DNA from: Marinobacter maroccanus
GTDB lineage: Bacteria; Pseudomonadota; Gammaproteobacteria; Pseudomonadales; Oleiphilaceae
Direction: 5' to 3'
Length of the DNA: 64,000 bases
NCBI RefSeq assembly: GCF_002933275.1
Contig: NZ_PSSX01000005.1
Location: 1-64,000 of the forward strand
How positions within the stretch are numbered: the stretch's first letter is position 1; each line of letters opens with the position of its first letter. Shown here one piece after another: positions 9,718 through 24,902 of this stretch. Under the pieces are notes generated by a model that did not search any database, was not told where the DNA came from, and saw only the letters and a program-made list of their open reading frames with translations. The position numbers and the translations under genes were made by a program.

Positions 9718-12420
9718 ATGTCATCCGGAACAGGGTTTGTCGCGTTGGAAATTAAGTCACCAAGTCTTTCTGTCTCACTCAGTGCTCGCCTCGCCATCGC
9801 ACTTGGCTTGCTTGCAGCTCTGTCTGGCTGTCTTTCAAGCAGTGACAGCCAGCAGGCGGACCCGGTGGTTGTCGAGAACCCTGTGGCTTATGTCGAACGG
9901 GCACTGCTTTTTGACGAGAACACCGGTGCCCTGGTGGAGGATAACCTTGCCGACCCGAGCGCCTTCCGTCCCGGAGCAAGGCTGTTACTGAAGGCCAGTG
10001 CGACCGCAGATGCCGAAACACGGGATATTGCTTCCAGGGCGTTCGCCGGGCCGCAATTCCTCGATGACAACGGCCAGTTGCGTTATGACGTGAAAGATCT
10101 CCACGTTTCCCACGATGGCTTGCGATTGCTGTTCGCCATGCGCGCCCCGGAAATCGAAGATGCCGATGACGAGGATCAGCCAACCTGGAATATCTGGGAA
10201 TACGATGTTAGTACCGACATCCTGCGCCGGATCATCGATTCGGACGTCACTGCCCGTGCTGGCCAGGACGTTGCGCCCGCCTATCTGCCCGATGGCAGGA
10301 TCGTTTTCTCTTCCACCCGTCAGCGGATTTCGAAGGCGGTGCTGCTGGATGAAGGCAAACCCCAGTATTCCGGCCTGGACGAGGAGGGTGACAGCCCTGC
10401 GTTTGTTCTGCATGTGATGGACGATGATGGCCAGAATATTGAGCAGATCACGTTCAACCAGAGCCACGACCTCGACCCCATGGTGGCGGACGACGGCACC
10501 ATTGTGTTCAGCCGCTGGGACAATGCCGGCCAGACCCGCAACAACGGTGTAAACCTCTATCGCGTGAACCCTGACGGTACCGGCCTGAGCTATCTCTTCG
10601 GTCGTCACTCTCACGATTCGGTACCAGAAACCAACGATATTCAATATCTGCAGCCCCGCAAGTCAGACAGTGGCAATCTGCTGGTTCAGCTAAGGCCATT
10701 TGAGAGTGATGATTATGCGTCCGTGTTGGCAGAAGTCGATGTTGACCAGTTTGTTGAGGCCAACCTGCGCATCGACGGGACCGAAGGTTCTGGTCAGCGC
10801 TCGCTTGTGCCCGGTGTAGGCCTGGATGGGCAGCTGTCGCTGAAAGGCAGCTATGCATCGGTTTCACCACTGCTGGATGGTACCAACCGCTACCTGGTGA
10901 GTTGGACACCCTGCCGGTTGCGTGAAACAGCAACCGACCGGATTGTTAACTGCACGGAAGACCGCCTTCAATCTGAAGATTATCAGCCCGCAGAGCCCGT
11001 CTACGGTCTCTGGCTTCTCGATATCACCAGTGAAACCCAGCGACCAGTCGTCCCACCTGTTGAAGGTATTCAGTTCGATGAAGCAGTACTGATGAAGGAG
11101 CGGCCCCTGGAGGGATTTATTCCTGAGTCCCAGTTTACCGGTGATGAGGGCGCTCTCGGGGATGCCGGTTACGGGATTCTGCACATTCGCAGTGTCTACG
11201 ATATTGACGGAGTAGACACCACGCCGGCTGGTATTGCTGCAATGGCCGATCCGCTGCAAACGCCGCCGGAGGATCGGTCTGCCAGGTTCCTTCGCCTGGA
11301 AAAACCCGTGGCCATTCCCGATGAGAATGTCCGGGATTTCGACAACAGCGCCTTTGGCCGCAGCCGGGGTCAGCTAATGCGGGAGATACTGGGCTACGTG
11401 CCGATAGAGCCTGATGGGTCAGTGAAGGTGGCGGTGCCCGCCAATGTTGCTTTTGCCATCCGTATTCTTGATGAGAAAGGCCAGCGTGTTGGTGGCGCTA
11501 TGGGCAACCGGCACCAGAACTGGCTCACGGTGCGCCCCGGCGAGACCCTTGAATGTTCAGGGTGCCACAACCCGAACAGTCCGACACCCCATGGCAGACC
11601 GGATGCCGGTCGAGCGTCCGTGTGGGGTGGGGCCGCAACCACCAGCCTTCCGTTCCCGAATACCGACCCGGCTCTGTTTGCCGACATGGGTGAAACCATG
11701 GCTCAGGTGTTTGCCCGCATCAACGAGATTCGCCGGCCGACGCCGGATGTAATCTATGCCGATGAATGGTCCGGAGATGCCGTGGATCCCAAGCCTGACA
11801 GCTTTGCCTACGCCTATGCCGATCTGCAGACACCGCCGCCGATATCCGGCGTATGTGCCACCGACTGGGCGCCGAATTGCCGGATTGTGATCAACTACGA
11901 GCAGCATATTCATCCGCTGTGGAGCGTCAATCGGGAGGTATTGGATCCGGACACCATGGCGGTCGTGGATGACTACACCTGTACCAGTTGCCATACGGAC
12001 ACCGATGCGGCGGACGCTCAGCAAGTGCCGGCTGGACAACTGGATCTGGGCGATGGCCCGTCACCCGATGAACCGCTACACTTCAACGCCTACAGAGAAC
12101 TGCTCTTCCCGGATAGTGAGCAGGAACTGGTTAACGGCGCCCTGATCGATGTGCTCGTGGACTCCGGGGAGGTTTTGAGGGACGAAGAAGGCAATCCCAT
12201 TCTGGACACCAACGGAGATGAACAACCCATCCTGGTAACAGTGCCGGTGCAGGCTTCAATGTCCGTCAACGGTGCTCGTGCCAGTCGTTTCTTCGACGTA
12301 TTCGCCGACGACGGATCACACAGGGATTTCCTCTCGCCCGCCGAACTGCGACTGATTGCAGAGTGGTTGGATATTGGCGGCCAGTATTTCAACAATCCGT
12401 TCGACGCTCCGGAAGACTGA
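9718..12420 (+). CDS. HzsA-related beta-propeller lipoprotein with two CxxCH motifs
   Basis: A large lipoprotein, 900 residues from the ATG at 9718 (lipobox LLAALSGC, Cys38). A TTG at 9745 with an AGGG upstream would give a shorter, more typical signal. The N-terminal half has repeated propeller-like segments of the PD40/TolB type (DVAPAYLPDGRIVFSSTRQR, then DLDPMVADDGTIVFSRWD). The C-terminal half holds two heme motifs, LECSGCHNPNSPTPHGRP and YTCTSCHTDTDAADAQ. This architecture is what databases call 'HzsA-related', after the middle domain of hydrazine synthase alpha. No hydrazine chemistry is implied; the rest of that enzyme is absent. It opens the long plus-strand operon, which puts a heme protein at the head of the envelope machine genes. 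Confidence 0.75.
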   Translation: MSSGTGFVALEIKSPSLSVSLSARLAIALGLLAALSGCLSSSDSQQADPVVVENPVAYVERALLFDENTGALVEDNLADPSAFRPGARLLLKASATADAETRDIASRAFAGPQFLDDNGQLRYDVKDLHVSHDGLRLLFAMRAPEIEDADDEDQPTWNIWEYDVSTDILRRIIDSDVTARAGQDVAPAYLPDGRIVFSSTRQRISKAVLLDEGKPQYSGLDEEGDSPAFVLHVMDDDGQNIEQITFNQSHDLDPMVADDGTIVFSRWDNAGQTRNNGVNLYRVNPDGTGLSYLFGRHSHDSVPETNDIQYLQPRKSDSGNLLVQLRPFESDDYASVLAEVDVDQFVEANLRIDGTEGSGQRSLVPGVGLDGQLSLKGSYASVSPLLDGTNRYLVSWTPCRLRETATDRIVNCTEDRLQSEDYQPAEPVYGLWLLDITSETQRPVVPPVEGIQFDEAVLMKERPLEGFIPESQFTGDEGALGDAGYGILHIRSVYDIDGVDTTPAGIAAMADPLQTPPEDRSARFLRLEKPVAIPDENVRDFDNSAFGRSRGQLMREILGYVPIEPDGSVKVAVPANVAFAIRILDEKGQRVGGAMGNRHQNWLTVRPGETLECSGCHNPNSPTPHGRPDAGRASVWGGAATTSLPFPNTDPALFADMGETMAQVFARINEIRRPTPDVIYADEWSGDAVDPKPDSFAYAYADLQTPPPISGVCATDWAPNCRIVINYEQHIHPLWSVNREVLDPDTMAVVDDYTCTSCHTDTDAADAQQVPAGQLDLGDGPSPDEPLHFNAYRELLFPDSEQELVNGALIDVLVDSGEVLRDEEGNPILDTNGDEQPILVTVPVQASMSVNGARASRFFDVFADDGSHRDFLSPAELRLIAEWLDIGGQYFNNPFDAPED

Positions 12421-12442
12421 TCCAAGGACTGAAATTCGCACC

Positions 12443-13195
12443 ATGCCCATCGCCATTCTTATGTTTCTTTTGTTGTTGCCGGCCCAGAGCTGGGCTGGCT
12501 GGCTGTGGGGGCAGGCTGAAGACGATGCATTGAAAGTGCAGGTGGTGGAGCCCTATGTGTCCTGGCGAACCGGACCGGCAACGGGCTATCCGATTTTTCA
12601 TACCAGCGAAAAAGGGGAATGGCTAACCATTCTCCAGCGCAAGACAAGTTGGATCAAAGTGACGGATACCCGTGGCCGGGAGGGTTGGATAGCGGTTGCG
12701 GATATTGCGCAGACGGTGGATGCCACGGGTAATCGTGTGGATCTTCAGGTGCCGGATTTTGAGGCTTTTGAAAGCCGGCGGGTGGAAGCCGGATTGATGA
12801 TGGGGGAGTTTGACGGTGCCGCTGTCACGGCAGGCTACGGCGGCTTCTGGATGACCAGAAACCTGTCCGCCGAGCTTTGGGCTTCTCAGATTCTGGGCAG
12901 CGCCTCGGAAATTAGAATGGTTAATGCGAATCTGGTGCATCAGCCATTTCCTGACTGGCGGGTATCACCCTTTTTTACCCTGGGGGTCGGGCATATCTGG
13001 GTTGATCCCAAGGCCACTCTGGCTCAGCCCGAAGTACGGGATAACAGCATTGGCCATGCAGGGCTTGGCATCCGCGCCTACATCACCGATCGATATTTCA
13101 TCCGTGCCGAAGTGAAGGACTACAAAGTGTTCACTACCCGGTCCACCAACGAAGAAGCGACAGAATGGAAAATCGGACTAAGCATCTTTTTCTGA
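12443..13195 (+). CDS. SH3-domain outer-membrane beta-barrel protein
   Basis: A 250-residue exported protein. The signal peptide runs to about residue 18 (PAQSWAG). Residues of about 33-88 form a bacterial SH3-type domain (VEPYVSWRTGPATGYPIFHT, then WIKVTDTRGREGWIAVADI) that would sit in the periplasm, perhaps on peptidoglycan. From about 100 to the end alternate-hydrophobic strands with Gly/aromatic girdles form a small beta-barrel ending in IGLSIFF, the usual C-terminal Phe of outer-membrane proteins. It begins 22 bp after the HzsA-like gene and overlaps the next barrel gene by 31 bp, so the two are probably translated together. It resembles the OmpA-like barrel family shared by Myxococcus Glt/Nfs proteins and some gammaproteobacteria, but this was not tested. 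Confidence 0.75.
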   Translation: MPIAILMFLLLLPAQSWAGWLWGQAEDDALKVQVVEPYVSWRTGPATGYPIFHTSEKGEWLTILQRKTSWIKVTDTRGREGWIAVADIAQTVDATGNRVDLQVPDFEAFESRRVEAGLMMGEFDGAAVTAGYGGFWMTRNLSAELWASQILGSASEIRMVNANLVHQPFPDWRVSPFFTLGVGHIWVDPKATLAQPEVRDNSIGHAGLGIRAYITDRYFIRAEVKDYKVFTTRSTNEEATEWKIGLSIFF

Positions 13196-13809
13196 AAACG
13201 CTGTGTCTCGGGGCAGGGCTATGCATAGCCACAGCAACCCAGGCCCAGGATGATCGGCCGCTGATCGAGCCGGATGTTACCCCGGTGCCGGTCACCGAGG
13301 CGCTGATTGACACCGAGAACTTTGAAATTGGCGCTTTTGTGGGCGTGCTCAATATCGAGGACTTCGAGTCGTCGCTGCTTTATGGCGGCAAGCTCACCTA
13401 CCACCTCAGTGAGTCCTTCTTTTTCGAGGCGGGAGTGGGCTTTGCGGAGGGCGGCGAAACCAGTTTCGAGAAGCTGGCCGGCAACGTGGAGGTGCTCACC
13501 GACAGTGAGCGGGATTACAGCTATTACAATATCAACCTGGGTTACAACGTGCTGCCGGGCGAGGCCTTCCTCACTGAGAACTATGCGTTCAACACCAATT
13601 TCTACCTGATCGCAGGGGCCGGAGCCACCGATTTTGCCGGTGATACCCGGTTTACCCTGAATGCCGGGGCGGGCTATCAGGTGCTGTTGACGGACAGCGT
13701 CGCAGTCCACCTTGGGGTGCGCCAGCACTACTACCGAATCGATGTTCTGGGGGCCGAGAAGACCTCCATGAACACCGAGGTAAGCACTGGCCTGTCGGTC
13801 TTTTTCTGA
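13165..13809 (+). CDS. Outer-membrane beta-barrel domain protein (OMP_myx-like)
   Basis: A 214-residue protein with a signal peptide (LCIATATQAQ) and a barrel of about eight predicted strands. Recognisable pieces are FEIGAFVGVLNIEDFESSLL, KLTYHLSESFFFEAGVGFAE, YYNINLGYNVLPGEAF, a DVAV-type strand before the end, and the terminal STGLSVFF. The pattern (a 'Y-x-x-N-x-G-Y-N-x-L-P-G-E' segment with final Phe) matches my memory of the outer-membrane beta-barrel family found in Myxococcus gliding/sporulation clusters and in some marine gammaproteobacteria. Unlike its upstream neighbour it has no SH3 domain. The start codon lies inside that gene, giving a 31-bp overlap. Confidence 0.78.
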   Translation: MENRTKHLFLKTLCLGAGLCIATATQAQDDRPLIEPDVTPVPVTEALIDTENFEIGAFVGVLNIEDFESSLLYGGKLTYHLSESFFFEAGVGFAEGGETSFEKLAGNVEVLTDSERDYSYYNINLGYNVLPGEAFLTENYAFNTNFYLIAGAGATDFAGDTRFTLNAGAGYQVLLTDSVAVHLGVRQHYYRIDVLGAEKTSMNTEVSTGLSVFF

Positions 13810-13826: not shown

Positions 13827-14324
13827 ATGAAAGCATCCATAAAATCACTGGCAGTAGCGGGCATCCTGGCCTGCCTGAGCCCACTGGCAGGCGCAGAAGC
13901 AATCAATGTTCCGGCTCCGGATTTCACCCTGGAAAGCCGTTCCGGGGAGAACCTGAGGCTGGAGGATCATCGTGGTGAAGTGGTGATGCTGAACTTCTGG
14001 GCCTCCTGGTGCGGGCCCTGCCGCCAGGAAATGCCCCTGATGGATGAGCTGTACAGCCAATACAAGGATCTCGGTTTCACGATTCTGGCGGTCAATGTGG
14101 ATGAAAATCGGGAGGAGGCGCATCGCTTCCTGGACAAGGTGCCCGTGAATTACCCGATCCTCTACGATCCGGAGAGCTCGGTGAGTGAACTGTATGAAGT
14201 GCAGGCCATGCCAACCACCGTAATGATTGATCGCAATGGCAATGCCCGTTATCTCCACTACGGATACCAGCCGGGCTACGAAGACGAGTACGAACAGCAG
14301 ATTCGCGAATTGGTGCGCGAGTAA
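13827..14324 (+). CDS. TlpA/ResA-like periplasmic thioredoxin
   Basis: A periplasmic thiol-disulfide oxidoreductase of the AhpC/TSA-TlpA type, 165 residues with a signal peptide cleaved near AGAEA. The active site is W61-C62-G63-P64-C65, and the cis-proline loop is QAMPTT. It lacks the membrane anchor of ResA. Its place 17 bp after the barrel gene and 18 bp before the DUF4266 gene suggests a dedicated client. The DUF4266 lipoprotein ends in a CGC motif and is the obvious candidate, and the exported heme proteins of the neighbouring operon also need reduced CxxCH cysteines. DsbD, encoded at the far end of this window, could supply electrons. Confidence 0.88.
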   Translation: MKASIKSLAVAGILACLSPLAGAEAINVPAPDFTLESRSGENLRLEDHRGEVVMLNFWASWCGPCRQEMPLMDELYSQYKDLGFTILAVNVDENREEAHRFLDKVPVNYPILYDPESSVSELYEVQAMPTTVMIDRNGNARYLHYGYQPGYEDEYEQQIRELVRE

Positions 14325-14342: not shown

Positions 14343-14579
14343 ATGCGTAGTTTGTCGATCTTCACTGTCTCCGCGCTGCTGGCCGCCTCGTTTGCGGTTT
14401 CTGGATGCAGTTCAGTTAAGCCGTGGGTGAAACCTTACGAACGGGATAATCTGGCGGATCCGGTCATGAGTCTCAGTCGTCATGGCAAAGCGGATTCCTA
14501 TATGCACCACGTCTATCAGGCCCGGGAGTCTGCACGGGGAGCGGAAGGCGGTTCGGGAGGTGGTTGTGGCTGCAACTGA
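14343..14579 (+). CDS. DUF4266 small lipoprotein with C-terminal CGCN
   Basis: A 78-residue lipoprotein: signal with lipobox AVSGC (Cys22), then a mature part of only 56 residues. The mature part contains the family core KPWVKPYERDNLADPVMS and HHVYQARESARGAEGG, and ends with a Gly-rich tail carrying C75-G-C77-N78. The function of DUF4266 is unknown. The tail with two cysteines one residue apart, plus an HH pair, could bind a metal or form or exchange a disulfide. Genes for DUF4266, DUF3570, TlpA-like and ApbE proteins are, from memory, often neighbours in proteobacteria. Here TlpA and DUF3570 flank it directly. The tail codons double as ribosome site and start region of the next gene. Confidence 0.85.
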   Translation: MRSLSIFTVSALLAASFAVSGCSSVKPWVKPYERDNLADPVMSLSRHGKADSYMHHVYQARESARGAEGGSGGGCGCN

Positions 14580-15729
14580 CAGAAGACAGTTGGTGCGGTC
14601 CGGGTTGCTTTTGTTGCTGGCGCTGGTGCCGTTCGGGCATCAGGCGATTGCGGCGACCTTGCCAGTGGATAACGTGGATGTTCTCTACCACCGCTACGAT
14701 GGTGGTGGTATGGTCATTGACGGCCCATCAGTTCTGGTGCGCAAGGGTATTGGCTCGTCGGTTTCGTTTTCGGGGCAGTACTACGTCGACTCTGTTTCGG
14801 CCGCTTCGGTGGATGTCCTTGCAACGGCGAGCCCCTATGAGGAAGAGCGGAACGAGTACACCTTTGGCGTTGATTACCTGCACGACAAATCCATTCTGAG
14901 CCTTGGCTTTACCAACAGTACCGAAAACGATTACGAAGCCAATACCGTTTATTTTTCTGTCAGTCAGGAGTTCTTCGGGGGTATGTCCACGGTCACCATG
15001 GGTTATGCCAGTGGCTGGGATGAGGTTGGCCGGGTTGGTAACGATTCCTTCAGCGAGGAAGCCGATCGTCGCAACTATCAGCTGGGTCTGAGCCAGGTTG
15101 TCACCCGCAACAGTCTGGTGGGCCTGGACCTTGAGGTAGTCACGGATGAGGGCTTCCTGCAGAACCCTTACCGACAAAACCGCTACATCGACCCGAACGA
15201 TTCCACAGCGTTCCTGTATCAACCGGAGCGTTATCCGGAAACACGAACCAGCACCTCCGTGGCCATGCGAGCGCTTTACTATCTGCCGTATCGCGCCTCA
15301 ATTCGCGGTGAATACCGTTATTTTTCCGATACCTGGGGCATCAACGCCCACACGGTCGAGCTGGGATACGTTCACGGATTGACCCAGCGTTGGACCCTTG
15401 AGGGTTCCGTTCGCTACTACAGCCAGAACGAGGCGGACTTTTACAGCGACCTTTTCCCGTTCGAGAACTCCCAGACACACCTTGCCCGGGACAAGGAACT
15501 CAGCTCGCTTTCAGGAACAACCCTGGCGGTAGGCGCGGTGTACGAATGGAAGCAGACGTCTCTTCCGGGCATCGATCGCCTGCAGTTCAGTCTCCTGGTG
15601 GACTGGCTGAATTTTGATTATGACAACTTCCGGGATGTCACCGCAGCCGGAGATTTTCTCCCCGGCGAAGAACCCCTTTATTCCTTCGATGCCTACGTAA
15701 CCCGGGCGTCGTTGATTCTTGAATACTGA
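14566..15729 (+). CDS. DUF3570 outer-membrane beta-barrel protein
   Basis: A 387-residue protein of the DUF3570 family. Translation probably starts at GTG 14566, five bases after a GGAGG that lies inside the DUF4266 tail codons; the 14-bp overlap implies coupling. A signal peptide (LLLLLALVPFGHQAIAA) precedes VDNVDVLYHRYDGGGMVIDG. Many amphipathic strands follow (SGQYYVDSVSAASVDVLATA, YTFGVDYLHDKSILSLGF, TVTMGYASGWDEVG), ending with ASLILEY. It is expected to be a large barrel of the outer membrane. DUF3570 proteins have no proven function. Constant pairing with DUF4266 suggests that the small lipoprotein works with, or is exported by, this barrel. An in-frame ATG exists upstream at 14482 but would place 28 non-signal residues first. 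Confidence 0.85.
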   Translation: MAATDRRQLVRSGLLLLLALVPFGHQAIAATLPVDNVDVLYHRYDGGGMVIDGPSVLVRKGIGSSVSFSGQYYVDSVSAASVDVLATASPYEEERNEYTFGVDYLHDKSILSLGFTNSTENDYEANTVYFSVSQEFFGGMSTVTMGYASGWDEVGRVGNDSFSEEADRRNYQLGLSQVVTRNSLVGLDLEVVTDEGFLQNPYRQNRYIDPNDSTAFLYQPERYPETRTSTSVAMRALYYLPYRASIRGEYRYFSDTWGINAHTVELGYVHGLTQRWTLEGSVRYYSQNEADFYSDLFPFENSQTHLARDKELSSLSGTTLAVGAVYEWKQTSLPGIDRLQFSLLVDWLNFDYDNFRDVTAAGDFLPGEEPLYSFDAYVTRASLILEY

Positions 15730-15748
15730 GCATGCAGGAAGAACGACC

Positions 15749-16300
15749 ATGGCCACTTGCTTGAACCATCGAATCCCGGCGCTTTTGGCGGCATTGACCC
15801 TCGCCCTGACGGCCCCCGCATTCGCCCAGACCAACACCGGGGCTGAGAAGGATGATACAGCCGTCGCCGAGCAGGTGGAGGCTCTCAAGAAGAAGGTGAT
15901 CCGCCTGAACCGGGACCTGTTTATCCTCGAAGAGGATCTGCTGTTCCCGGCCAATACCCAGGTTGCGGTGTTTCTCAGCGTGGATGCCGGAAAGTTCCTG
16001 AAGCTGGATGCGGTGAAGCTGAAGGTCGACGATGAGATCGTTGCCTCTTACCTCTACACGGAGCGTCAGGTAAAAGCACTCGAACGGGGCGGCATGCAGC
16101 GGCTGTATGTGGGCAACCTGAAAACCGGAGTTCACCAGATGACCGCGTTCGTTGAAGGCATCGGTCCGGATCAGCGGCCCTACAAGCAGGCCGCGTCCCT
16201 GGAATTTGAAAAGGGTACTGGCACAGCTGCTCTGGAGATCCGTGTTGAGGATCGCTCTTCCGATTATCAGCCCTCCGTGTCCATCGTGGAGTGGGAGTAA
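15749..16300 (+). CDS. Exported coiled-coil/beta protein of unknown function
   Basis: A 183-residue periplasmic protein. The ATG at 15749 follows AGGAAG and gives a signal peptide ending TAPAFAQ. A short coiled-coil (VAEQVEALKKKVIRLNRDLF) is followed by a compact beta-rich domain. Not recognised. The domain pattern (a phrase such as FLSVDAGKFLKLDAVKLKVD, then a YTERQVKALERGGMQRLYVG stretch) fits small periplasmic proteins found in Glt/Nfs-like clusters, but no family name can be given. It sits 19 bp after the DUF3570 gene and is followed closely by the TPR genes, so it belongs to the same operon. Confidence 0.65.
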   Translation: MATCLNHRIPALLAALTLALTAPAFAQTNTGAEKDDTAVAEQVEALKKKVIRLNRDLFILEEDLLFPANTQVAVFLSVDAGKFLKLDAVKLKVDDEIVASYLYTERQVKALERGGMQRLYVGNLKTGVHQMTAFVEGIGPDQRPYKQAASLEFEKGTGTAALEIRVEDRSSDYQPSVSIVEWE

Positions 16301-16320
16301 GCCGCGTCGTGGGATTGACA

Positions 16321-18255
16321 GTGAGCAAGCCGTTTCGAGCGCACCCGGTACTGTTCACCGGTGCTTTGCTATGGCTGACGATGATTGCGCCGGCCCAGGC
16401 CGATGAGCCCCAACCGGAGCGTGCGCAGGACCTCAGGTACGGTTGGGTACTCTATGAATACCATCAGGGCAACGCCTTTGAGGCTCTGACCCAGCTGGCG
16501 GTTGCCCGGGAACAAGGTGGTATTGATGGTCATGGTGATCACCCGGCTCTGGTAGAGGGCGGGCTCATGCTGTCCTGGGGGATGACCCGTGAGGCCAGCA
16601 TATTGTTCACGGAACTGCTCGGTGCTGACGGAGCGGGCAGCACACTTTCGACCGATGTTCGGAATCAGGCCTGGTTCTATCTGGGCAAGGTGTTCTACCT
16701 GGAAGGTGATCATGAACTGGCCAGCGAGAATCTCGAGCGTGTAGATGGTGACATCCTGGCTGAGGCCAACCATGACCTGTTCCGAGAGTGGGTTTATCTG
16801 CGAGCCCGACTGGCCATGATGTCTTCGAGGACTGGAGACGAATCGGAACTGGCGTCGCTCCAGGCGCAACTGGAAGACACGGATATCTGGTCCCTTTACC
16901 TCCGGTACAATTCGGCCGTTTCCGCCCTGGCTGCAGGAGACGCTGTCACGGCCGAGGCGGAACTGCAGGCACTCATCGCCATCATTGAACAGTCTACCGA
17001 CTCTGCCGAACCAGAGGCCGAACGCCAGGGACTGTTGGGCAGGGCCCGCCTGTCACTTGCCCGGCTGTACCTCAGGGATAACCAGTTCGATGGGGCCCTG
17101 GAGATTCTTGGGAACATGCCCCTGACTGGGCTGTTCGCCGATCAGGCCCTGTTCGACTACGCCGTAGCCGCGGCCGGGCAGGGCAGGCCGGAGCGGGCAC
17201 TCGATGCCCTCGATACCCTCTCGAACCGGGATCTGTTTTTGCCGTGGCGGCAGCAGGTTCCGTTTGCCCGAGCCTATGTACTTGAGCAGATGAACAGAAC
17301 GCAGCAAGCCTTACCCGCGTTTAAACAGGCAGCCGGCCATTACCAGGCCCGAATCGAGGAGCTCGATGACATCCGGAATCGGCTCACTGAAGAGACTCTC
17401 ATGGCCCAGCTCGATTTCAGCCGAGATAGCGACGGGATTCTCACAGATTCCCACGGACGACTGCGGGTTCAGCCGGTCGATTTCGGCATGGCCGAAGTGC
17501 TGGCTTCGGAAACCTTCCAGCAGGCCCTTGCGGAATTGAACGAACTTTACCGGATGCAGTCCTTCATCGCCGAGCGGCAGTCACGGTTCGAGTCCTTCCG
17601 GATAATGCTGGAAACCCGCGAACAGCAGCGTCAGGTTCGTATTGCCCAAACCCGTCGGGCGCTGGAAAACCAGCAGGCGGACCAGTGGCAGCAGTTGCAC
17701 CAGGAATTCAGTGAGAAGATTTCTGAGGCACTGACGGAGGAAGACGCCGGTTTCTTCATGACGTCCAAACAGAAGGCGCTGAGAGACAAGCTCGATGAGG
17801 TTGAAGAAACTCTGGCGGGCTTGCCTGACGACGCGACCACGGCCAGCCAGCGTGCGACCTATCAGAGGATGCGTGCCTACTTCGACTGGTGGATTGCGGA
17901 TGACTATGGCGTGAATCGCTGGGCGGCGCAAAAACAGTTGCGGGAGCTGAATCGCGAAATGGATCGCTTTCAGGCCCAGCGGCAGCGGGTTGAAACCCTG
18001 ATGGCCGACGACGCCCGCCATGCTGAACTGGCTCGACGCATCGCTGCCAGTGAACGGGAACTCGCGACCCTTGGGGAAGAGGTTGCCGATGCATTGGTCA
18101 ATGCCCGGCAAGCCCTCTTGAGTCAGGTAGACAGCATGCTTGTAGCCCAGCAGGAGGAGCTGAACGGGTACCTGTTGGCTTCCCGTCATGCCCAGGCGAG
18201 GCTGGCGGACCAGCTGTTCCGCGCATCCCAAAGTGCAGGTGTCGGGGATGAGTAA
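16321..18255 (+). CDS. Exported TPR/coiled-coil protein
   Basis: A 644-residue periplasmic protein. Of three in-frame GTG codons, 16321 (six bases after GGGA) gives the best signal peptide, ending MIAPAQADE. Residues to about 320 carry TPR-like helical repeats (AWFYLGKVFYLEGDHELASE; RARLSLARLYLRDNQFDGAL). From about 330 onwards there are long Gln/Arg/Glu-rich coiled-coils (LETREQQRQVRIAQTRRALE; LREMNREMDRF-type heptads). No enzyme motif is present. It is probably a scaffold spanning part of the periplasm between the barrels and the ExbB/ExbD motor. Its stop codon overlaps the next start (ATGAGTAA), showing translational coupling. Confidence 0.72.
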   Translation: MSKPFRAHPVLFTGALLWLTMIAPAQADEPQPERAQDLRYGWVLYEYHQGNAFEALTQLAVAREQGGIDGHGDHPALVEGGLMLSWGMTREASILFTELLGADGAGSTLSTDVRNQAWFYLGKVFYLEGDHELASENLERVDGDILAEANHDLFREWVYLRARLAMMSSRTGDESELASLQAQLEDTDIWSLYLRYNSAVSALAAGDAVTAEAELQALIAIIEQSTDSAEPEAERQGLLGRARLSLARLYLRDNQFDGALEILGNMPLTGLFADQALFDYAVAAAGQGRPERALDALDTLSNRDLFLPWRQQVPFARAYVLEQMNRTQQALPAFKQAAGHYQARIEELDDIRNRLTEETLMAQLDFSRDSDGILTDSHGRLRVQPVDFGMAEVLASETFQQALAELNELYRMQSFIAERQSRFESFRIMLETREQQRQVRIAQTRRALENQQADQWQQLHQEFSEKISEALTEEDAGFFMTSKQKALRDKLDEVEETLAGLPDDATTASQRATYQRMRAYFDWWIADDYGVNRWAAQKQLRELNREMDRFQAQRQRVETLMADDARHAELARRIAASERELATLGEEVADALVNARQALLSQVDSMLVAQQEELNGYLLASRHAQARLADQLFRASQSAGVGDE

Positions 18256-21133
18256 CCGGATGCCTGGAAAGACCGTGAGGGGACTTGTCATCGCCGTAGC
18301 CCTTGTCATGATCAGTGGCTGCCAGATGTTGCAGTCGATGATGCCTGCCGGCGACGAGGAAATGCCCCGGGTCCGTGAGGGCACCCTGGCAGCGCTTCCG
18401 GCGAACGAAACCCGGCAAGCCAGTGGAAGTTTAGAAGCTGGCAGCGACCCGGCGGGCGATGTTTCAATCGAGTCGGTGATGGACAGCTACAAGGCACTTT
18501 TGCCACTTGTGGACGATCCCCGGAAGCAGGTCACCATCCGGCATCGGCTGGCCGATCTGGAGTTCCAGCGGGCGGAGCGGAAAATGGCCGATACCGCCGT
18601 CGATGAGCTCTCCGGTGCTATTGAAGCCTACCAGCGCCTGCTGTCGGAATATCCAGAACGCGAAGGCAATGACCAGATCTACTATCAGCTTGCCAGGGCC
18701 TGGGAGCTTCGGGGTGCGACGCCTCAACAGCTGGAGGCCCTGACTGCCCTGGTCCAACGTTACCCCGATTCAGAATACTGGATTGAAGCCCAGTTCCGTC
18801 GGGGAGATCTGCTGTTCATCGATGGCCGGTACCCGGAAGCCGAGCAGGCGTTCGACGAGGTGACCCTGGCCAGCCAGGAACGCATGGCCGACGCCTCGTT
18901 TCTGGTGAACGCGCATTACATGAAAGGCTGGAGCCTGTTCAAGCAGGCGCAATACCAGGAGGCCCTGTTCAGCTACGTAGAGGTGCTCGATCTGGTGATG
19001 CCTGAGGGCAAGCCGGTGGCGGATGTGGATCAGCGGAGCCAGACCCTGATCGAGGATCTGTTCAGGGTAGTGGGGCTTTCACTGTCTTACCTTGACGGCG
19101 CGGAGACCCTCCAGGCGCTGTTCCGCCAGACGGGTGGGCGTCCCTATGAAATCCTGGTCTACGACCGCTACAGCGAGCTCTTGCTCGAGAGGGAACAATA
19201 CAGTGACGCCATCGATGTCTTTGAAGCCTATATAGAAGACCATCCGTCCAGCCCCTGGGCGCCGCGCTACCACATCCGGATCATTGATACCCTGGAGCTG
19301 GCCGGTTTCACCCGTACCATCCCTGAACGAAAGGCCGGCTTTGTCAGCCTTTACGGACTCTACAGCGATTACTGGCAGTCAGCGGGCCCTTCGGCGATCA
19401 GCTTTATCGAACAGCAGCTGGAACAGCTGTTGCCGGAACTGGCAGACCGTCAGTACCTGCTGGCAGGGGAGGCCCCGGATAATCAGCAGGCGGACGATCA
19501 CTACCGCAAGGCCGCCAGTTATTATGCCGAATTTGCGGCTACTTTCCCGGATCATCCCCGCACACCCGAGCGTCTCTTCCTCCTGGGTGAGACCTATCTG
19601 GAACTGGAAGACTGGCCGGCGGCCATCGCCGCTTTTGAGCGGGTAGCTTATGACTATCCCGGCGACCGGGTCCCCGAGCGAGCACCGGAGGCGGGCTATG
19701 CGTCGGTACTGGCCTTCCGGGAGTACGCAAAGACCTGGGAAAGCGAACCCGTATCGGAGCAGATGGCTTATCAGGAGCTACAGCAGTTGAATCGACTTAG
19801 GTTTGCAAATGCTTTCCCAGGTGATTCCCGGGCACCGGCGGTGTATTACATTGCACTGCAGCGGGAGTTTGACCAGGACAACTGGGAAGAGTCGGTCAAC
19901 ATGGCGGCTCGTCTTGTTACCTGGCAACCGGCGCCTCCGGCCGAATTAACGACGGAAGCCTTGCTGTTGTCTGGCCACAGCCTGTCCGAACTGGGTCGAC
20001 ACGGGGAGGCGGAGCTGGCCTACCGTGACGCCCTGGCGACAATGGTTGAAGACGATGAACGCAGAAGCGGCGTTCGTGAAAATCTGGCCGCAGCGGTCTA
20101 TCGGCAGGCAGAGCAGTTAGCTGACGCCGGCAATGTGGAGGCGGCCGTCAGCGAATTCCTGCGAGTCGGCACGGCCGTTCCCGAATCCGTTCTGCGGGCA
20201 AATGCGGAATACGATGCTGCCTCACTTCTTATCACCGCCAGTTTTTGGGATCAGGCTATCAGTGTGCTGAACGGATTCCGGAGGGCTTTCCCGACCCACG
20301 AACTGATTGATACGGTCCCGGCAAAACTTGCGTTGGCCTACCGTGAAACGGAGCAGTGGGAGCGAGCAGCCGACGAACTTCAGCAAATGGTGGCCCTGGC
20401 GACGACGCCGGAAGAGCGAAGGGAAAATCTGTTGATTGCAGCAGAGTTGTACGATCAGGCCGGCAACCGGGAAAAGGCGATCGACACCTGGCGCAGTTAC
20501 GCTAACAGCCATCCCGAGCCGGCGGATGTCTACATGGAGGCGGCCAATCGGCTGTCCGAGCTCTACCAGGAAGAGGGGGATACCGAAAAACGGGATTACT
20601 GGCTGCGCAAGCAGATGGAAACGGTGGATCGAAACCCGGACGAGGCGGATGATCGCATGCGCTATCTTGCGGCGTCAGCCTCTGCAATGCTCGCCCGCGA
20701 TGCCCTTGCCCGGTATGACAGCATTCGCCTGACTCTGCCGCTGAACCAGAGCATGACAGCAAAGACCGATGCACTCGAAAGGGCAGTCAATGCCTACAAG
20801 AAAACCGCCAGCTACGGTCTCTCGTCGTTCGCTACCGAGGCCGGTTACCAGATCGCCCATATTTATGGACGCCTCGGTGCCGACCTGATGGATTCCGAAC
20901 GGCCCACCGGATTGAGCGAGCTTGAACTGGCCCAGTACGAGCTGCTGCTGGAAGAACAGGCCTACCCGTTTGAGGACAACGCCATCGATATCCACGAGCA
21001 GAACATCCGGCGGGCCCGGGAGGGCATTTTTGATGAGTGGGTCAAGCGCAGCTATGAGGCCTTGAAAGTCCTGTTGCCGGGGCGCTACCGGAAAGAAGAA
21101 CTGACCTCGGGGGTTGTCTATGAAATCGATTAA
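18248..21133 (+). CDS. Large TPR lipoprotein
   Basis: A 961-residue lipoprotein: lipobox MISGC about 20 residues after the ATG at 18248, which overlaps the previous stop codon. Most of the mature protein is made of tetratricopeptide-like helical hairpins, for example YYQLARAWELRGATPQQLEA, YMKGWSLFKQAQYQEALFSY, RLFLLGETYLELEDWPAAIA and LLLSGHSLSELGRHGEAELA. It is a likely assembly scaffold under the outer membrane. Similar large TPR proteins occur in Myxococcus Glt (GltE/AglT, GltI types) and in Tol-Pal-associated CpoB, but CpoB is far smaller. No catalytic motif is visible. Confidence 0.75.
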   Translation: MSNRMPGKTVRGLVIAVALVMISGCQMLQSMMPAGDEEMPRVREGTLAALPANETRQASGSLEAGSDPAGDVSIESVMDSYKALLPLVDDPRKQVTIRHRLADLEFQRAERKMADTAVDELSGAIEAYQRLLSEYPEREGNDQIYYQLARAWELRGATPQQLEALTALVQRYPDSEYWIEAQFRRGDLLFIDGRYPEAEQAFDEVTLASQERMADASFLVNAHYMKGWSLFKQAQYQEALFSYVEVLDLVMPEGKPVADVDQRSQTLIEDLFRVVGLSLSYLDGAETLQALFRQTGGRPYEILVYDRYSELLLEREQYSDAIDVFEAYIEDHPSSPWAPRYHIRIIDTLELAGFTRTIPERKAGFVSLYGLYSDYWQSAGPSAISFIEQQLEQLLPELADRQYLLAGEAPDNQQADDHYRKAASYYAEFAATFPDHPRTPERLFLLGETYLELEDWPAAIAAFERVAYDYPGDRVPERAPEAGYASVLAFREYAKTWESEPVSEQMAYQELQQLNRLRFANAFPGDSRAPAVYYIALQREFDQDNWEESVNMAARLVTWQPAPPAELTTEALLLSGHSLSELGRHGEAELAYRDALATMVEDDERRSGVRENLAAAVYRQAEQLADAGNVEAAVSEFLRVGTAVPESVLRANAEYDAASLLITASFWDQAISVLNGFRRAFPTHELIDTVPAKLALAYRETEQWERAADELQQMVALATTPEERRENLLIAAELYDQAGNREKAIDTWRSYANSHPEPADVYMEAANRLSELYQEEGDTEKRDYWLRKQMETVDRNPDEADDRMRYLAASASAMLARDALARYDSIRLTLPLNQSMTAKTDALERAVNAYKKTASYGLSSFATEAGYQIAHIYGRLGADLMDSERPTGLSELELAQYELLLEEQAYPFEDNAIDIHEQNIRRAREGIFDEWVKRSYEALKVLLPGRYRKEELTSGVVYEID

Positions 21134-21689
21134 GGCCTGTGGACTCTGTCTTTCGGTGATAGTCGCTCTGTCTGGATGCGCGACGGCCCCGACGCCGCAA
21201 GAGTCTGATGTGCAAGCCGAGCAGGCTGTCCTTGAAGCCTCATTCAGCGAAGCGGTCCAGGCCATGGAGCAGGGCGACCTTGCCGAAGCCCGGACCCGTT
21301 TTGAGCAATTGGCCCGCGACTATCCGGACAAGGCCGGCCCCATGGCCAACCTCGGCATCATTGCTTTCCAGGAAGGGGATACCGATACCGCGAAACAATG
21401 GTTTGAGAGCGCGCTGGCGGTGAATCCCGAACATGTCCAGGCGTTGAATCATCTGGGCGTGATTGCCAGGAACGCCGGGGAATTTGATGAAGCAGAGCGC
21501 TATTACCGGGCTGCCCTGGCCGTGGATCCGAATTACGCACCAGCAATCCTTAATCTGGCCTTCCTGCTTGATATCTACCTGGGTAATCCTGCGGATGCGG
21601 TTGACCTCTATGAGCGTTATCAATCGGCTGCCAGTGAGCCGCACCCGAGATTGGAAGACTGGATCTTCGATGCGAAAAACAGAATCTGA
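21120..21689 (+). CDS. TPR lipoprotein (AglT/PilF-like size)
   Basis: A 189-residue lipoprotein. The ATG at 21120 lies within the end of the preceding gene (14-bp overlap) and the lipobox is ALSGC. Three or four canonical TPR motifs follow: AVQAMEQGDLAEARTRFEQL, PMANLGIIAFQEGDTDTAKQ, ALNHLGVIARNAGEFDEAER and AILNLAFLLDIYLGNPADAV. Size and layout resemble the small TPR lipoproteins AglT of Myxococcus or PilF of pseudomonads. With no pilus genes around, an accessory role in the local envelope machine is the better guess. Confidence 0.78.
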   Translation: MKSIKACGLCLSVIVALSGCATAPTPQESDVQAEQAVLEASFSEAVQAMEQGDLAEARTRFEQLARDYPDKAGPMANLGIIAFQEGDTDTAKQWFESALAVNPEHVQALNHLGVIARNAGEFDEAERYYRAALAVDPNYAPAILNLAFLLDIYLGNPADAVDLYERYQSAASEPHPRLEDWIFDAKNRI

Positions 21690-21704
21690 TGTGGAAAAGA
21701 TGAT

Positions 21705-22010
21705 ATGAAACATCCCGCGCTGATCGCTCTTGCAGTTTGTGCGCTGTTGCCCACGGCGCCCATGCTTTACGCCCAGGATGCCCCGGGGGTGGTAACCATT
21801 GAAGGCACACGAATCCGTGGCGATCAGGAAGTGCCCACGGTGATGTATCTGGTGCCCTGGCAGCCACCGGAAGTGGACGAGTTGCGTGCGCCAGAAGAAC
21901 GCCTGATGGTTGATCAGGGCCTTGGGCCCCTGGAGCGCTATGAGTTCCAGCGATTTATCAAGTATCACGAAGCCTTCATCAAACAGACCCAGGCAGCAGC
22001 CGGGGAATAG
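21705..22010 (+). CDS. Small exported protein of unknown function
   Basis: A 101-residue protein with a signal peptide (ALLPTAPMLYAQ). The mature part contains VVTIEGTRIRGDQEVPTVMY, a plug-like TIEGTRIRG phrase reminiscent of the start of TonB-dependent receptor plugs, then a charged helical tail. Not recognised. It lies 15 bp after the small TPR lipoprotein gene and 139 bp before exbB. In that gap there is no hairpin with a T-tract, only a short GATGC/GCATC repeat. The phrase resemblance may be chance. Confidence 0.6.
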   Translation: MKHPALIALAVCALLPTAPMLYAQDAPGVVTIEGTRIRGDQEVPTVMYLVPWQPPEVDELRAPEERLMVDQGLGPLERYEFQRFIKYHEAFIKQTQAAAGE

Positions 22011-22149
22011 AGTGTGATGCCTGTCGCATCCTGAGTGTGTCGCTGCGCAAGATTAAACAAACCCTCACACAGACTTTCGCGAACTTACCCGCACAAGGTC
22101 AGGCCGCGCATAGACTGATCTGAAAACCGGACCATGGAGTGCCCAGAAA

Positions 22150-22857
22150 ATGATCGATACCGCCGTTCGCTTCTTCCAGGAAGGTGGCTTTTTTATGTTT
22201 CCGATCGCCATTGTGCTGATCATCGGACTCATTGTTGCCATTGAACGTTACGTCTACCTTTCCGCCCAGAAACTGACCAACCGTCGGGACTTCAATCGCC
22301 TGCACCAGATGATTGCCAAGCGCGATCTGAAAGGCGCCCTGAATTACACCCAGGAATCCGGTAGTGCCATGTCGACCATGATCGGCTTCGGCCTTCAGCG
22401 TCTGGCCCGCCGCCAGGGTCGCGAAGAGATCGAATACGCCATGGAAGAGGGGCTGCTGGATGTGATGCCCCGGCTGGAAAAGCGCACACAGTACCTGGCA
22501 ACGCTGGCCAACATCGCCACGCTGCTGGGTCTGCTCGGTACCATTATCGGTCTGATTGCCGCGTTTACCGCAGTAGCCGCAGCGGATCCGGCCCAGAAGG
22601 CGAGCCTGTTGTCCCAGAGTATCTCGGTCGCCATGAACACCACCGCCTTCGGCCTTATGTCGGCCATTCCTATGCTGTTGATCCACTCGCTGCTGCAGAC
22701 CAAAACCAATGAGATCGTAGATAGCTTCGAGATGGCGGGCATCAAGGTCCTGAACATTCTCAGCGACGGTTCCGGTAACAAACCGGTCGCCCAACCACAG
22801 GCCCAGAACGCCGCTGCACCGGCACAGGTAGCGACTCCGGCCGGTAGCCCGGCCTGA
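22150..22857 (+). CDS. MotA/TolQ/ExbB proton-channel protein (AglR-like)
   Basis: The inner-membrane motor subunit of a TolQR/ExbBD-type system, 235 residues. Three membrane segments are visible: about 13-33 (GGFFMFPIAIVLIIGLIVAI), about 115-140 (ATLANIATLLGLLGTIIGLI) and about 155-180. The conserved signature is TLANIATLLGLLGTIIGLIAAF, and the cytoplasmic loop lies between helix 1 and helix 2. With two ExbD-like proteins and a TonB-like protein it would convert proton flow into mechanical work. The C-terminus adds a short Ala/Gln/Pro tail. A GGAG precedes the ATG. The set fits AglR-AglQ-AglS better than a siderophore ExbBD because of the neighbouring TPR and barrel genes and the absence of a TonB-dependent receptor. 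Confidence 0.88.
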   Translation: MIDTAVRFFQEGGFFMFPIAIVLIIGLIVAIERYVYLSAQKLTNRRDFNRLHQMIAKRDLKGALNYTQESGSAMSTMIGFGLQRLARRQGREEIEYAMEEGLLDVMPRLEKRTQYLATLANIATLLGLLGTIIGLIAAFTAVAAADPAQKASLLSQSISVAMNTTAFGLMSAIPMLLIHSLLQTKTNEIVDSFEMAGIKVLNILSDGSGNKPVAQPQAQNAAAPAQVATPAGSPA

Positions 22858-22882
22858 TAATCAGCCAGAAGGATGTCAGGCC

Positions 22883-23395
22883 ATGAGACGGAAACATCGT
22901 CGCCTTCAAAGTGAGGCCGATCTCGACATTACGCCCTTCATGAATCTCATGATTGTGCTGGTGCCGGTACTGCTGCTGAATATGGTGTTTGCCCACACCA
23001 GCGTTCTGGAACTGAACTTCCCGACCGGTGAAAGCCTGTCCGCGGAGCAGGCCGAAGAACTGCAGATCCAGGTGGTGATCTATGAAGATCGGCTGGTCGT
23101 TGCGGATAACCAGGGCGGGGTTATCAAGAATATCCCTCAGCGTGAGGGCGAGTATGATTTTGCGCTGCTCAAGGATGTCATGAAGGAAATCAAGAGTCGG
23201 GTGCCGGATAAAAAGGATGTGATTATCATGCCGTCCCGGCAGACGTCCTACCAGTCCCTGGTTTCCGTGATGGATACGGTGCGCTCCTACGAAGCCGTTG
23301 TGGCTGGCAGTGTCGTAGAGGCAGAGCTGTTCCCGGAAATCTCGCTGGGTGATGCCCCTGCCTTGGCTTCGGGATCCGCGGAGGTGAGTTCATGA
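22883..23395 (+). CDS. ExbD/TolR-like protein 1, membrane Asp replaced by Asn
   Basis: A 170-residue ExbD/TolR family protein with one N-terminal membrane helix (about 19-40) and a periplasmic domain. The ExbD consensus 'D-I-T-P-hydrophobic-D' appears here as D15-I16-T17-P18-F19-M20-N21, so the acidic residue that normally carries the proton is Asn21. The rest of the fold (VVIYEDRLVVADNQGG; KKDVIIMPSRQTSYQSLVSV) is well kept. It overlaps the second exbD gene by 4 bp (ATGA). It probably forms a heteromer with it in which only the second copy has the active Asp. Confidence 0.85.
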   Translation: MRRKHRRLQSEADLDITPFMNLMIVLVPVLLLNMVFAHTSVLELNFPTGESLSAEQAEELQIQVVIYEDRLVVADNQGGVIKNIPQREGEYDFALLKDVMKEIKSRVPDKKDVIIMPSRQTSYQSLVSVMDTVRSYEAVVAGSVVEAELFPEISLGDAPALASGSAEVSS

Positions 23396-23892
23396 AAGAA
23401 TCCGCCAAAGCCCGTCGTTTGAAGCGCCATTACCGGCGTAACAAGAGCCAGGGAAAGATGAACCTGGTGTCGTTGATGGATATCTTCACCATCCTCGTGT
23501 TCTTCCTGATGGTGAACTCCTCGTCCGACGTACAGGTACTGAACCAGAACAGCACCATTAAATTGCCGGATTCCACTGCCCAGCAACCCCCGGGCGATGT
23601 GCTGGCGCTGACCGTGACGGACAGGGACATCCTGATTAACGGTCGACTGGTGGTTAAACGCGACGCTTTTCAGACCTTTGACGGGCAGATCGAACCCTTT
23701 CTGAAACAGGAACTGGACTATCAGGCCAGCCGTTCGTCGGCTCCTGCACCGGATGCGGGCCGCCCAATTACCATTCTTGCGGACCGGGAACTGCCTTACG
23801 AGCTGCTCAAGAAAATCATGTCCACCTGTGTGGACGCCGGTTACGCCAGCATTTCCCTGGCGGTTAACCAGCGTACGGAACAGGGAGCCTGA
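23392..23892 (+). CDS. ExbD/TolR-like protein 2
   Basis: A 166-residue ExbD/TolR family protein. The very basic cytoplasmic N-terminus is followed by NLVSLMDIFTILVFFLMVNS, in which Asp30 sits at the position of the proton-carrying aspartate. The periplasmic part (LTVTDRDILINGRLVVKRD; ITILADRELPYELLKKIMST) matches the family. The start overlaps the first exbD gene, and the TonB-like gene begins 5 bp after its stop. In Myxococcus the comparable AglQ and AglS pair with AglR to drive gliding; whether motility exists here is unknown. Confidence 0.88.
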   Translation: MKESAKARRLKRHYRRNKSQGKMNLVSLMDIFTILVFFLMVNSSSDVQVLNQNSTIKLPDSTAQQPPGDVLALTVTDRDILINGRLVVKRDAFQTFDGQIEPFLKQELDYQASRSSAPAPDAGRPITILADRELPYELLKKIMSTCVDAGYASISLAVNQRTEQGA

Positions 23893-23897
23893 CCATT

Positions 23898-24902
23898 ATG
23901 GATTACCGGTACGGATTGCCCTGGAATCAGGAGCGCGGCGAGCGGAAGCGGTTGCTGGCTGCGGCCGTTGTGGTGGTGCCGCTGTTCCTCGCGTTCGCAG
24001 GCTATGTCAGCTGGATAGAGTTGCCTGAGCGGGACAGGCAGGAACAGGAAGCGTTGCCGCCCCAGCTGGCAAAACTGATCATTGAGAAGAAAGAGCCGCC
24101 AAAACCGGCACTGCCTGAACCTGAGCCCGAGCCTCCAAAGCCTGAGGAAAAGCCGGTGGAGCAGGCGAAGCCGGAACCCGAACCGGAGCCGGTCCCCGAA
24201 CCGGTGGTTGCGGAACCGGAGCCTGAACCTGAACCAGAAGTAGCGGAAAAACCAGAGCCAAAGCCGGAACCCAAGCCCGAGGAAGTCGCCAAGGCGCGGG
24301 AAAAGGCAAAGAATACCGGTATTCTGGCCATGGGGAACGAACTTAAAAAGCTCAGCTCGCTGGCGGAGTCGGTCAAGCTGGATGGCCCGGTTGCCAATAC
24401 AGCTGAGCCTATTGCTCGCAAAACCGGTGATACGCTGGCCTCCCGCGCTACCGCGAGTGCCAAGAGCAGTGGCGTGAACGAGGAGGTGCTCAATCGGGAG
24501 GCCGGTCAGGTCGCCCTGGCTGAGCGCCAGCGCGCGGAAGTTGCGGAAGCCGAACGGGTGGCTGCAGTCAAAGAGGCGGCCCGCAAGGAGCAGCAGGAAA
24601 CCGCCGCCCGAACCCGGAGCAAGGAGGAGTTGCGTCGTACCATGGACGCCAACAAGTCCGCGATTTACAGCATCTACAACCGGGAGCTGCGACGGAAGCC
24701 TTCGCTTCAGGGGAGTATCACGCCGGAGCTGGTCATTGAGCCCAACGGTGCGGTATCCAGTTGTTCAGTCGTGGAGTCCACCCTCAATGAGCCGGCGCTC
24801 GAGAGCAAGATCTGTAACCGTTTGAGGCTAGTTGATTTCGGGGCGCGGCCGGGGGTCGACCAGACCAAAATCAGATATCCGATCGAATTGCTGTCCAGTT
24901 AA
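23898..24902 (+). CDS. TonB-like protein with AgmX/PglI C-terminal domain
   Basis: A 334-residue inner-membrane protein. The N-terminus is cytoplasmic with one membrane helix (about 19-38). A Pro/Glu/Lys-rich linker of roughly residues 60-135 (many EPEP and KPEP units) is long enough to cross the periplasm, and an Ala/Glu/Arg-rich helix runs at about 190-240. The C-terminal 85 residues read IYSIYNRELRRKPSLQGSI, then VIEPNGAVSSCSVVESTLN and LRLVDFGARPG. This is the layout I know as the AgmX/PglI C-terminal domain, a TonB-like fold with two cysteines (SSC...SKIC) that probably form a disulfide. AgmX and PglI are GltJ and GltG of the Myxococcus gliding machine. It ends the operon at a strong hairpin. 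Confidence 0.85.
   Translation: MDYRYGLPWNQERGERKRLLAAAVVVVPLFLAFAGYVSWIELPERDRQEQEALPPQLAKLIIEKKEPPKPALPEPEPEPPKPEEKPVEQAKPEPEPEPVPEPVVAEPEPEPEPEVAEKPEPKPEPKPEEVAKAREKAKNTGILAMGNELKKLSSLAESVKLDGPVANTAEPIARKTGDTLASRATASAKSSGVNEEVLNREAGQVALAERQRAEVAEAERVAAVKEAARKEQQETAARTRSKEELRRTMDANKSAIYSIYNRELRRKPSLQGSITPELVIEPNGAVSSCSVVESTLNEPALESKICNRLRLVDFGARPGVDQTKIRYPIELLSS

Follow-up and report, generated by a model that had tools for sequence, protein, structure and literature searches.

A 64,000-nucleotide stretch of the Marinobacter maroccanus genome (GCF_002933275.1, NZ_PSSX01000005.1, positions 1-64,000; called the window below) carries a cluster of ∼19 genes that probably forms a single functional unit, in which an envelope motor core would drive a redox client. 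As read from its genes, this unit combines a nine-gene core of the Agl-Glt/Nfs type (genes G to O, 15719-24902) with a redox module made up of an ApbE gene, the minus-strand genes Z, Y, and X, and genes A to F. The part under study, positions 9718-24902, contains 15 closely packed plus-strand genes, which are lettered A to O and were characterized from the open reading frame (ORF) list and by profile searches; the genes from ApbE to X lie outside of it. The gene content, domains, conserved order, and one-way co-occurrence described below are direct observations. We read the core as a proton-driven machine serving interchangeable surface clients, in this case a flavin/heme redox complex.

A preliminary description of this part had proposed a Glt/Agl-like core with a proton-driven trans-envelope architecture, and the domains and gene content support this proposal. 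It counted 14 genes in a plus-strand run closed by a hairpin; the run and the hairpin were found, and the number of genes is 15 (the DUF4266 gene E had gone unnamed). It also treated heme and thiol proteins as an added feature, and these indeed belong to a conserved redox module. Only part of that module had been seen, as it includes E and extends upstream to X, Y, Z, and ApbE.

The motor of the core was identified by family profiles. L (22150-22857), an AglR-like motor protein of the MotA/TolQ/ExbB type (PF01618, 99.5 bits), is followed by two ExbD proteins, M (22883-23395; PF02472, 55.2 bits) without and N (23392-23892; PF02472, 63.1 bits) with a membrane aspartate, and by O (23898-24902), a TonB-like and GltG-like protein with an AgmX/PglI C-terminal domain (NF033768, 67.4 bits, cut-off 40). 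Thus, one MotA/ExbB protein, two ExbD proteins, and an AgmX/PglI-tailed TonB-like protein are encoded in one cluster with scores over the family cut-offs, in agreement with the preliminary description. The three TPR/coiled-coil scaffolds noted there, two of them as lipoproteins, are also present: H (16291-18255; weak TPR matches), which is GltC-like by size and type; I (18248-21133; YbgF/BamD-type TPR matches, lipobox ISGC), a large lipoprotein that is GltD-like by position; and J (21120-21689; GltE profile NF033758, 50.9 bits, cut-off 225, lipobox LSGC), a small GltE-like lipoprotein. In TPR type, size, and position, H, I, and J fit GltC, GltD, and GltE, as judged from profiles and published descriptions. 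Neither G (15719-16300, start probably 15749) nor K (21705-22010), a small protein with a signal-like start, had a family match in profile searches, and the structure model of G (pLDDT 85), an N-terminal helix plus a beta-sandwich, had no PDB match at E 0.001. By our own assignment, H would be the GltC-like gene and G and K would be extra core genes.

To survey the core, L was searched in 194 genomes of the order, which gave 81 matches in 67 genomes. Nine ExbB matches near contig ends were excluded, and the 72 core loci analyzed were the window, a second copy in the same genome, and 70 fetched regions. The number of loci with each core gene was 64 for G, 67 for H, 71 for I, 71 for J, 67 for K, 72 for L (by construction), 72 for M, 72 for N, and 71 for O, and these are undercounts where a locus is cut by a contig or region end. 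Because the labels G to O recur across the 72 loci, we define the core as these nine genes. At the membrane aspartate position, the first ExbD protein (M) has asparagine in 65 of the 72 loci, aspartate in 4, and serine in 3; the second (N) has aspartate in all 72. The motif [LVIM]Y[LIVM][LIVMT]PW is found in 32 of the 67 K proteins. The ExbD pair of the window (22883-23892) differs at the proton-binding position and so forms an asymmetric motor pair. In one surveyed locus (L067), five extra ORFs between K and L split the core.

The genes upstream of the core encode barrel, heme, flavin, and thiol proteins. ApbE (3181-4221, plus strand) is an FAD:protein FMN transferase (PF02424, 274.3 bits, cut-off 25.6). 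It is followed on the minus strand by Z (4243-5802), a predicted Tat-exported protein; Y (5815-8304), a lipoprotein (lipobox LSAC) with two CxxCH motifs and a LamG domain (Laminin_G_3, 77.8 bits); and X (8312-9598), a one-heme PSCyt3/PSD2-like protein with one CxxCH. On the plus strand, A (9718-12420) is a lipoprotein (lipobox LSGC) with two CxxCH motifs, a beta-propeller (PD40) repeat, and the middle domain of hydrazine synthase alpha (HZS_alpha, 58.3 bits). Two outer-membrane barrels had been described for this region. C (13165-13809) is over the OMP_myx_plus cut-off (TIGR04565, 157.7 bits, cut-off 60), and B (12443-13195), which carries an SH3 domain (SH3_4, 33.3 bits), has a partial OMP_myx_plus match that is under it (32.1 bits). 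The same holds among relatives: C was over this cut-off in all seven named ones that were profiled, and B was under it in both that were profiled. D (13827-14324) is a TlpA/ResA-like thiol oxidoreductase (Redoxin, 105.6 bits) with WCxxC, and E (14343-14579) is a 78-aa DUF4266 lipoprotein (PF14086, 81.4 bits) that ends in CxC. F (14482-15729, true start probably ∼14560) is a DUF3570 protein (PF12094, 141.5 bits), in agreement with the DUF3570 barrel first described there, and is the candidate substrate of ApbE. ApbE, DUF3570, DUF4266, and thioredoxin-like genes are found together at this locus.

The heme and thiol motifs of the module are conserved. Two CxxCH motifs are present in Y from 76 of 79 relatives and in A from 72 of 75, and X has one CxxCH in 75 of 75. 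WCxxC was found in 73 of 73 D proteins and the CxC end in 50 of 50 E proteins. The HZS_alpha domain was found in 14 of 14 members of A, which matches PDB entry 5c2v at E 3.8e-14. For X, weak matches at E up to 0.1 were obtained to PSD2 in 13 and to PSCyt3 in 6 of 14 aligned members, and the PSD2 score of the window protein (18.3 bits) is under the cut-off of 25.8. In Z, the twin arginine (R28 R29) is invariant among 39 sequences. The window Z had no match in Pfam and none in a sequence search of the PDB, and only the fold search was informative. With the structure model (pLDDT 72), VIA-align placed 436 of 998 chains at a Z score of 8 or more, the best being 3q3q (12.5, over 241 residues, root mean square deviation 5.0), and the matches shown were, by title, phosphatases, sulfatases, phosphodiesterases, phosphoglycerate mutases, and phosphoethanolamine transferases, with 2zkt bearing a locus name only. 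Foldseek alone gave a weak result (best E 1.8e-4). Based on its model, the predicted fold of Z is that of the alkaline phosphatase superfamily.

The arrangement of the two parts is conserved across genera. At least 556 relatives of Z were found, and the best 80 of them come from Marinobacter, Microbulbifer, Alteromonas, Paraglaciecola, Gilvimarinus, Shewanella, Hahella, metagenome-assembled genomes (MAGs) such as Sedimenticola, and others. Among these 80, X was present in 75 loci, Y in 79, A in 75, B in 70, C in 70, D in 73, F in 71, and ApbE in 43; E was found in 45, an undercount for a small gene that overlaps F, and G in 22, within 10-kb flanks. A core ExbB was present in each of the 35 genomes of this set that were searched, mostly isolates, and in 30 of them the nearest Z-core ExbB distance is <25 kb, provided that the two share a contig, a point that coordinates by themselves do not establish. 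Gene order was read in 12 regions chosen by hand from named genomes, and A to O were unbroken in nine: Shewanella basaltis, Shewanella KT0246, Shewanella SG41-4, Alteromonas aestuariivivens, Alteromonas facilis, an Alteromonadaceae strain, Paraglaciecola arctica, Aliiglaciecola lipolytica, and Marinobacter guineae. Because an identical order recurs in other genera, this gene arrangement is not due to chance. Conservation of the neighborhood had been proposed as a check in Marinobacter and Hahella, among others; it was found for Marinobacter, and the one Hahella region read has the core beside MoxR-VWA genes instead.

Some loci depart from this layout in their details. Three loci from the genus of the window (L046, L047, and L053) are rearranged, with a diverged A after O and with C and B reversed upstream of G; X, Y, and Z are not in the stretches read. 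The A gene of L035 is in three pieces in an otherwise normal locus. The module is also present in a MAG titled Klebsiella pneumoniae (L150), with a Z that is 67% identical; this assembly is probably mislabelled.

The distribution of the two parts among genomes shows how they are related. In the order sample of 194 genomes, core ExbB was found in 67, A in 50, and Z in 42, and all 50 genomes with A and all 42 with Z were among the 67 with the core (hypergeometric values of 4e-32 and 2e-25, with relatedness ignored; the groups span 26, 22, and 20 families). Since 16 of the 67 core genomes are without both A and Z and every genome with A or Z has the core, we conclude that the dependence is one-way, of the module on the core. 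In a class sample of 369 genomes, Z was found in 50, the core in 83, and both in 45, and in 19 of these 45 the two are ≤30 kb apart on one contig. Five class genomes have Z and no core match at the threshold. Two of them (G430 and G268) have core genes beside Z at a contig end, another (G194) has a Z fragment at a contig end, the draft G259 was undecided as to the presence of the core when its region was read, and the fifth, G226, is considered below. In the sampled genomes, the module therefore rarely occurs without the core.

The history of this linkage was assessed on a tree of ExbB from the 72 loci. A or X-Z was seen within the fetched stretch of 27 loci, a distribution that required 9 changes on this tree, compared with 21.8 when labels were shuffled, and 26 of the 27 loci fall in one supported branch of 46 rows, beside 20 loci of other types. 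The inner order of this branch is poorly resolved. From the few changes and the clustering in one branch, we conclude that the linkage of module and core is clustered on the tree and is probably old, and that it was lost or regained in some cases.

The core is also found with other partners. A second core copy in the same genome (C41, ∼238-246 kb; L007:8124-19901 and L008:1-1070) runs from G to O, has none of A to F, and is preceded by a VWA protein, a MoxR-like ATPase, and a VWA/CoxE protein; the window L is 68% identical to its L. MoxR and VWA genes also lie upstream of the core in L015, L016, L020, L021, L023, and L026 and in the Hahella region (L187). In another locus (L099:76-11709, after L068), the gene directly 3′ of O encodes a protein of 3877 aa that contains DUF11 repeats and a fimbrial domain of the isopeptide-forming type, and an ORF of ∼3,900 aa directly follows O in L100 (after L072); such a giant ORF is a possible surface client of the core. 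ApbE on its own adjoins the core in L025, L027, and L028, where the fetched stretch did not include the other module genes, and lies beside it in two Gilvimarinus regions (L186 and L191) in which the module is elsewhere. The one-way dependence, taken together with these other partner sets (MoxR-VWA genes and the 3877-aa protein), points to a general machine with different surface clients.

Several observations weigh against reading the locus as one unit with an Agl-Glt/Nfs-type core. A check of the proteins against Glt profiles did not give the expected result: no protein reached a Glt equivalog cut-off (GltG, 45.4 of 650 bits; GltE, 50.9 of 225; GltJ, 18.4 of 450), the locus had no over-cut-off match to the GltF, GltH, GltI, GltJ, or GltK profiles, and the best-named profile for the ExbB protein was TolQ, far under its cut-off. 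The kinship with Myxococcus is read from profiles and published descriptions. With regard to linkage, both Gilvimarinus regions have ApbE and then G to O with the module elsewhere, and in the Hahella region MoxR-VWA genes precede the core and the module does not adjoin it. With regard to co-occurrence, the counts ignore phylogeny, and the 16 core genomes of the order without A and Z are accompanied by nine with A and no Z and by one (G031) with Z and no A. In the class sample, 38 of the 83 core genomes are without Z, and the complete genome G226 has X, Y, Z, and A in two pieces without a close core ExbB, with B to F not found within the 40 kb read. In a phylum sample, Z was found in only 5 of 299 genomes, all of the same class.

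The predicted flavin site of F also departs from the published one. ApbE has been shown to flavinylate a DUF3570 protein of Chlorobium luteolum, with [S/T]GA[S/T] as the site (PMC8238504). The same motif was expected in the window F and was ruled out by the sites found there, SAAS and ATAS. This strict motif is present in 31 of 79 DUF3570 relatives; the looser [S/T]xA[S/T] is found at the first site in 78 of 79. Since the acceptor serine is kept, covalent FMN on F is possible.

From sequence, we infer that the core has the module proteins as its client, that these are located at the surface, and that they form an electron path. In the working scheme, protons would pass through ExbB (L) and the ExbD pair M-N, with an aspartate on one ExbD only, and force would be passed from the AgmX-tailed O to the TPR proteins H, I, and J, acting together with G and K, and from there to barrels B and C. 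This force would assemble, export, or move an outer-membrane redox complex, consisting of the DUF3570 barrel F with FMN put on by ApbE and fed by TlpA (D) and the CxC protein E, together with the heme proteins A, X, and Y and the phosphatase-fold Z. Electrons would run between the thiols (D and E), the flavin (F), and the hemes (A, X, and Y). What is moved, exported, or oxidized is put forward on the same footing; that the substrate is a surface glycan is a guess, weakly prompted by the LamG domain and by the PSCyt/PSD-like character of X and Y. In its most specific form, which we offer tentatively and with more doubt than confidence, the proposal is of a motor-driven surface redox machine of marine bacteria: a proton motor of the gliding type would physically assemble a flavinylated, multi-heme complex, or move it, over the outer surface of the cells. 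If true, proton force and extracytoplasmic electron transfer would be combined in one apparatus acting on a surface-bound substrate.

The core could instead be an energized outer-membrane translocator, type IX-like in principle, that carries A, Y, and F across with no surface movement afterwards. The one-way dependence of the module on the core and the 3877-aa surface-type protein with an isopeptide domain directly 3′ of another core are consistent with secretion, as is a weak match of the TPR protein I to PorW/SprE (55.7 bits). This score is well below the cut-off of 250, for which membership in the type IX system itself was rejected, and no SprA-kind translocon barrel is among the profile matches of the locus; we consider this explanation rather unlikely. 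It is less probable still that the core and the module are independent systems held together by co-inheritance or shared regulation. This would account for the several genomes in which they are apart or on different contigs, including Gilvimarinus and Hahella, and for the pairing of the core with other neighbors, but co-occurrence persists when the two are separate, with the core present in 50 of 50 A genomes and 42 of 42 Z genomes of the order.

The presence of ExbB, ExbD, and TonB-like proteins would also fit uptake, in which the redox proteins reduce or release a ligand (a metal or a polymer fragment) that the TonB-like motor imports via a barrel. An iron transporter is carried by 25 DUF3570 clusters elsewhere (PMC8238504), and O of one relative (L159) is over the TonB cut-off (33.8 versus 27.1). 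The window O, however, is under it (18.4), the ExbB/TolQ equivalogs are far under their cut-offs, the barrels B and C are of the short OMP_myx type, and the locus gave no match to a TonB-dependent receptor, which makes uptake improbable. Envelope maintenance by a diverged Tol system is very improbable. In its favor, L, M, and N have TolQ and TolR as their best-named profiles, and A shows a weak similarity to the TolB propeller (20 of 343.15 bits), but the scores are far below cut-off (TolQ, 62.9 of 221; TolR, 36.8 and 32.3 of 127.3), the cluster has two ExbD proteins and an AgmX tail with no over-cut-off TolB or Pal in the locus, and the genome holds five other ExbB-like matches besides the window L. 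Membership in a Tol-Pal or siderophore TonB system was rejected, as the window proteins are under all TolQ/R, ExbB/D, and TonB cut-offs. We favor the reading of core and module as one functional unit.

The hairpin that closes the cluster (24888-24917) lies over the O stop codon, between convergent genes, and has a 13-bp stem (-23.5 kcal/mol, z -6.5). It is without a T run and was not reported by a terminator scan. Promoter and terminator scans upstream gave no signal above chance.

An Agl-Glt core was reported in gammaproteobacteria in 2011, with its function given as unknown (PMC3169522), and the mention of such homologues in the preliminary description agrees with that paper. This core now has a specific, conserved partner set with a chemistry: a candidate covalent flavin, c-type hemes, thiols, and a phosphatase-fold Tat protein. 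The question of what this motor does outside of Myxococcus thereby becomes testable in culturable Marinobacter, Alteromonas, and Shewanella. Motors of this kind transport slime and spore-coat polymer in Myxococcus (PMC3858216), where recruitment of a surface protein bearing a von Willebrand domain has also been described (PMC13104615). Our results suggest a general envelope motor that serves clients, of which the gliding and spore-coat machines may be special cases.

The cluster resembles the gammaproteobacterial Agl-Glt core and the Myxococcus Agl-Glt/Nfs systems in having ExbB, two ExbD proteins, an AgmX-tailed GltG-like protein, and GltC/D/E-like TPR proteins in one cluster. Luciano et al. 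(2011; PMC3169522) described seven core genes plus one extra without Myxococcus homologues, a 673-aa TPR protein as GltC, and two Marinobacter with core duplicates; duplicates in Marinobacter are shared with the core analyzed here, whereas two additional conserved genes, G and K by our own assignment, stand against the one extra there. The same paper gives gltA and gltB as confined to Myxococcales and Bdellovibrionales. Here, unlike in that account, an OMP_myx barrel accompanies the core, and the OMP_myx profile is broader than gltA/gltB. A fixed linkage to a heme, flavin, and thiol module also distinguishes the present core from Agl-Glt/Nfs. The motor protein families are those of Tol-Pal and TonB-ExbBD, from which the cluster differs in having other partners and in scoring under all equivalog cut-offs.

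The module, in turn, is like the flavinylation clusters of Meheust et al. (2021; PMC8238504) in its ApbE, DUF3570, thioredoxin-like, and CxC-bearing DUF4266 proteins, all over Pfam cut-offs. It differs from the clusters as described there in having no DsbD among the scanned genes, in acceptor sites that are mostly S-[A/S/G]-A-S, and in its union with a proton motor as well as with HzsA-like and PSCyt-like proteins. Some PSCyt/PSD proteins, described from Verrucomicrobia with paired unknown families, carry carbohydrate-binding domains (PMC5615132), and the module is similar in its PSD2/PSCyt3-like X, its LamG (pfam13385) with CxxCH in Y, and its conserved partner Z. In contrast to those systems, the domains are on separate genes, the matches are weak or under cut-off, the hosts are gammaproteobacteria, and a motor adjoins. 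Like hydrazine synthase alpha (PDB 5c2v), A has the middle domain, a propeller-type repeat, and CxxCH motifs; unlike it, A is a lipoprotein, the best matched stretch is ∼60 residues, and no other hydrazine synthase subunit was matched in the locus. A search of titles and abstract starts found no paper in which the core is linked with ApbE/DUF3570 or HzsA-like genes, although parts of such a link may appear in the supplements of PMC3169522 and PMC8238504. Taken by itself, the core is known, as is the ApbE-DUF3570-thioredoxin-DUF4266 set; compared with the literature found, what appears to be new is the fixed union of the core and this flavinylation set with HzsA-like, PSCyt-like, and phosphatase-fold proteins.

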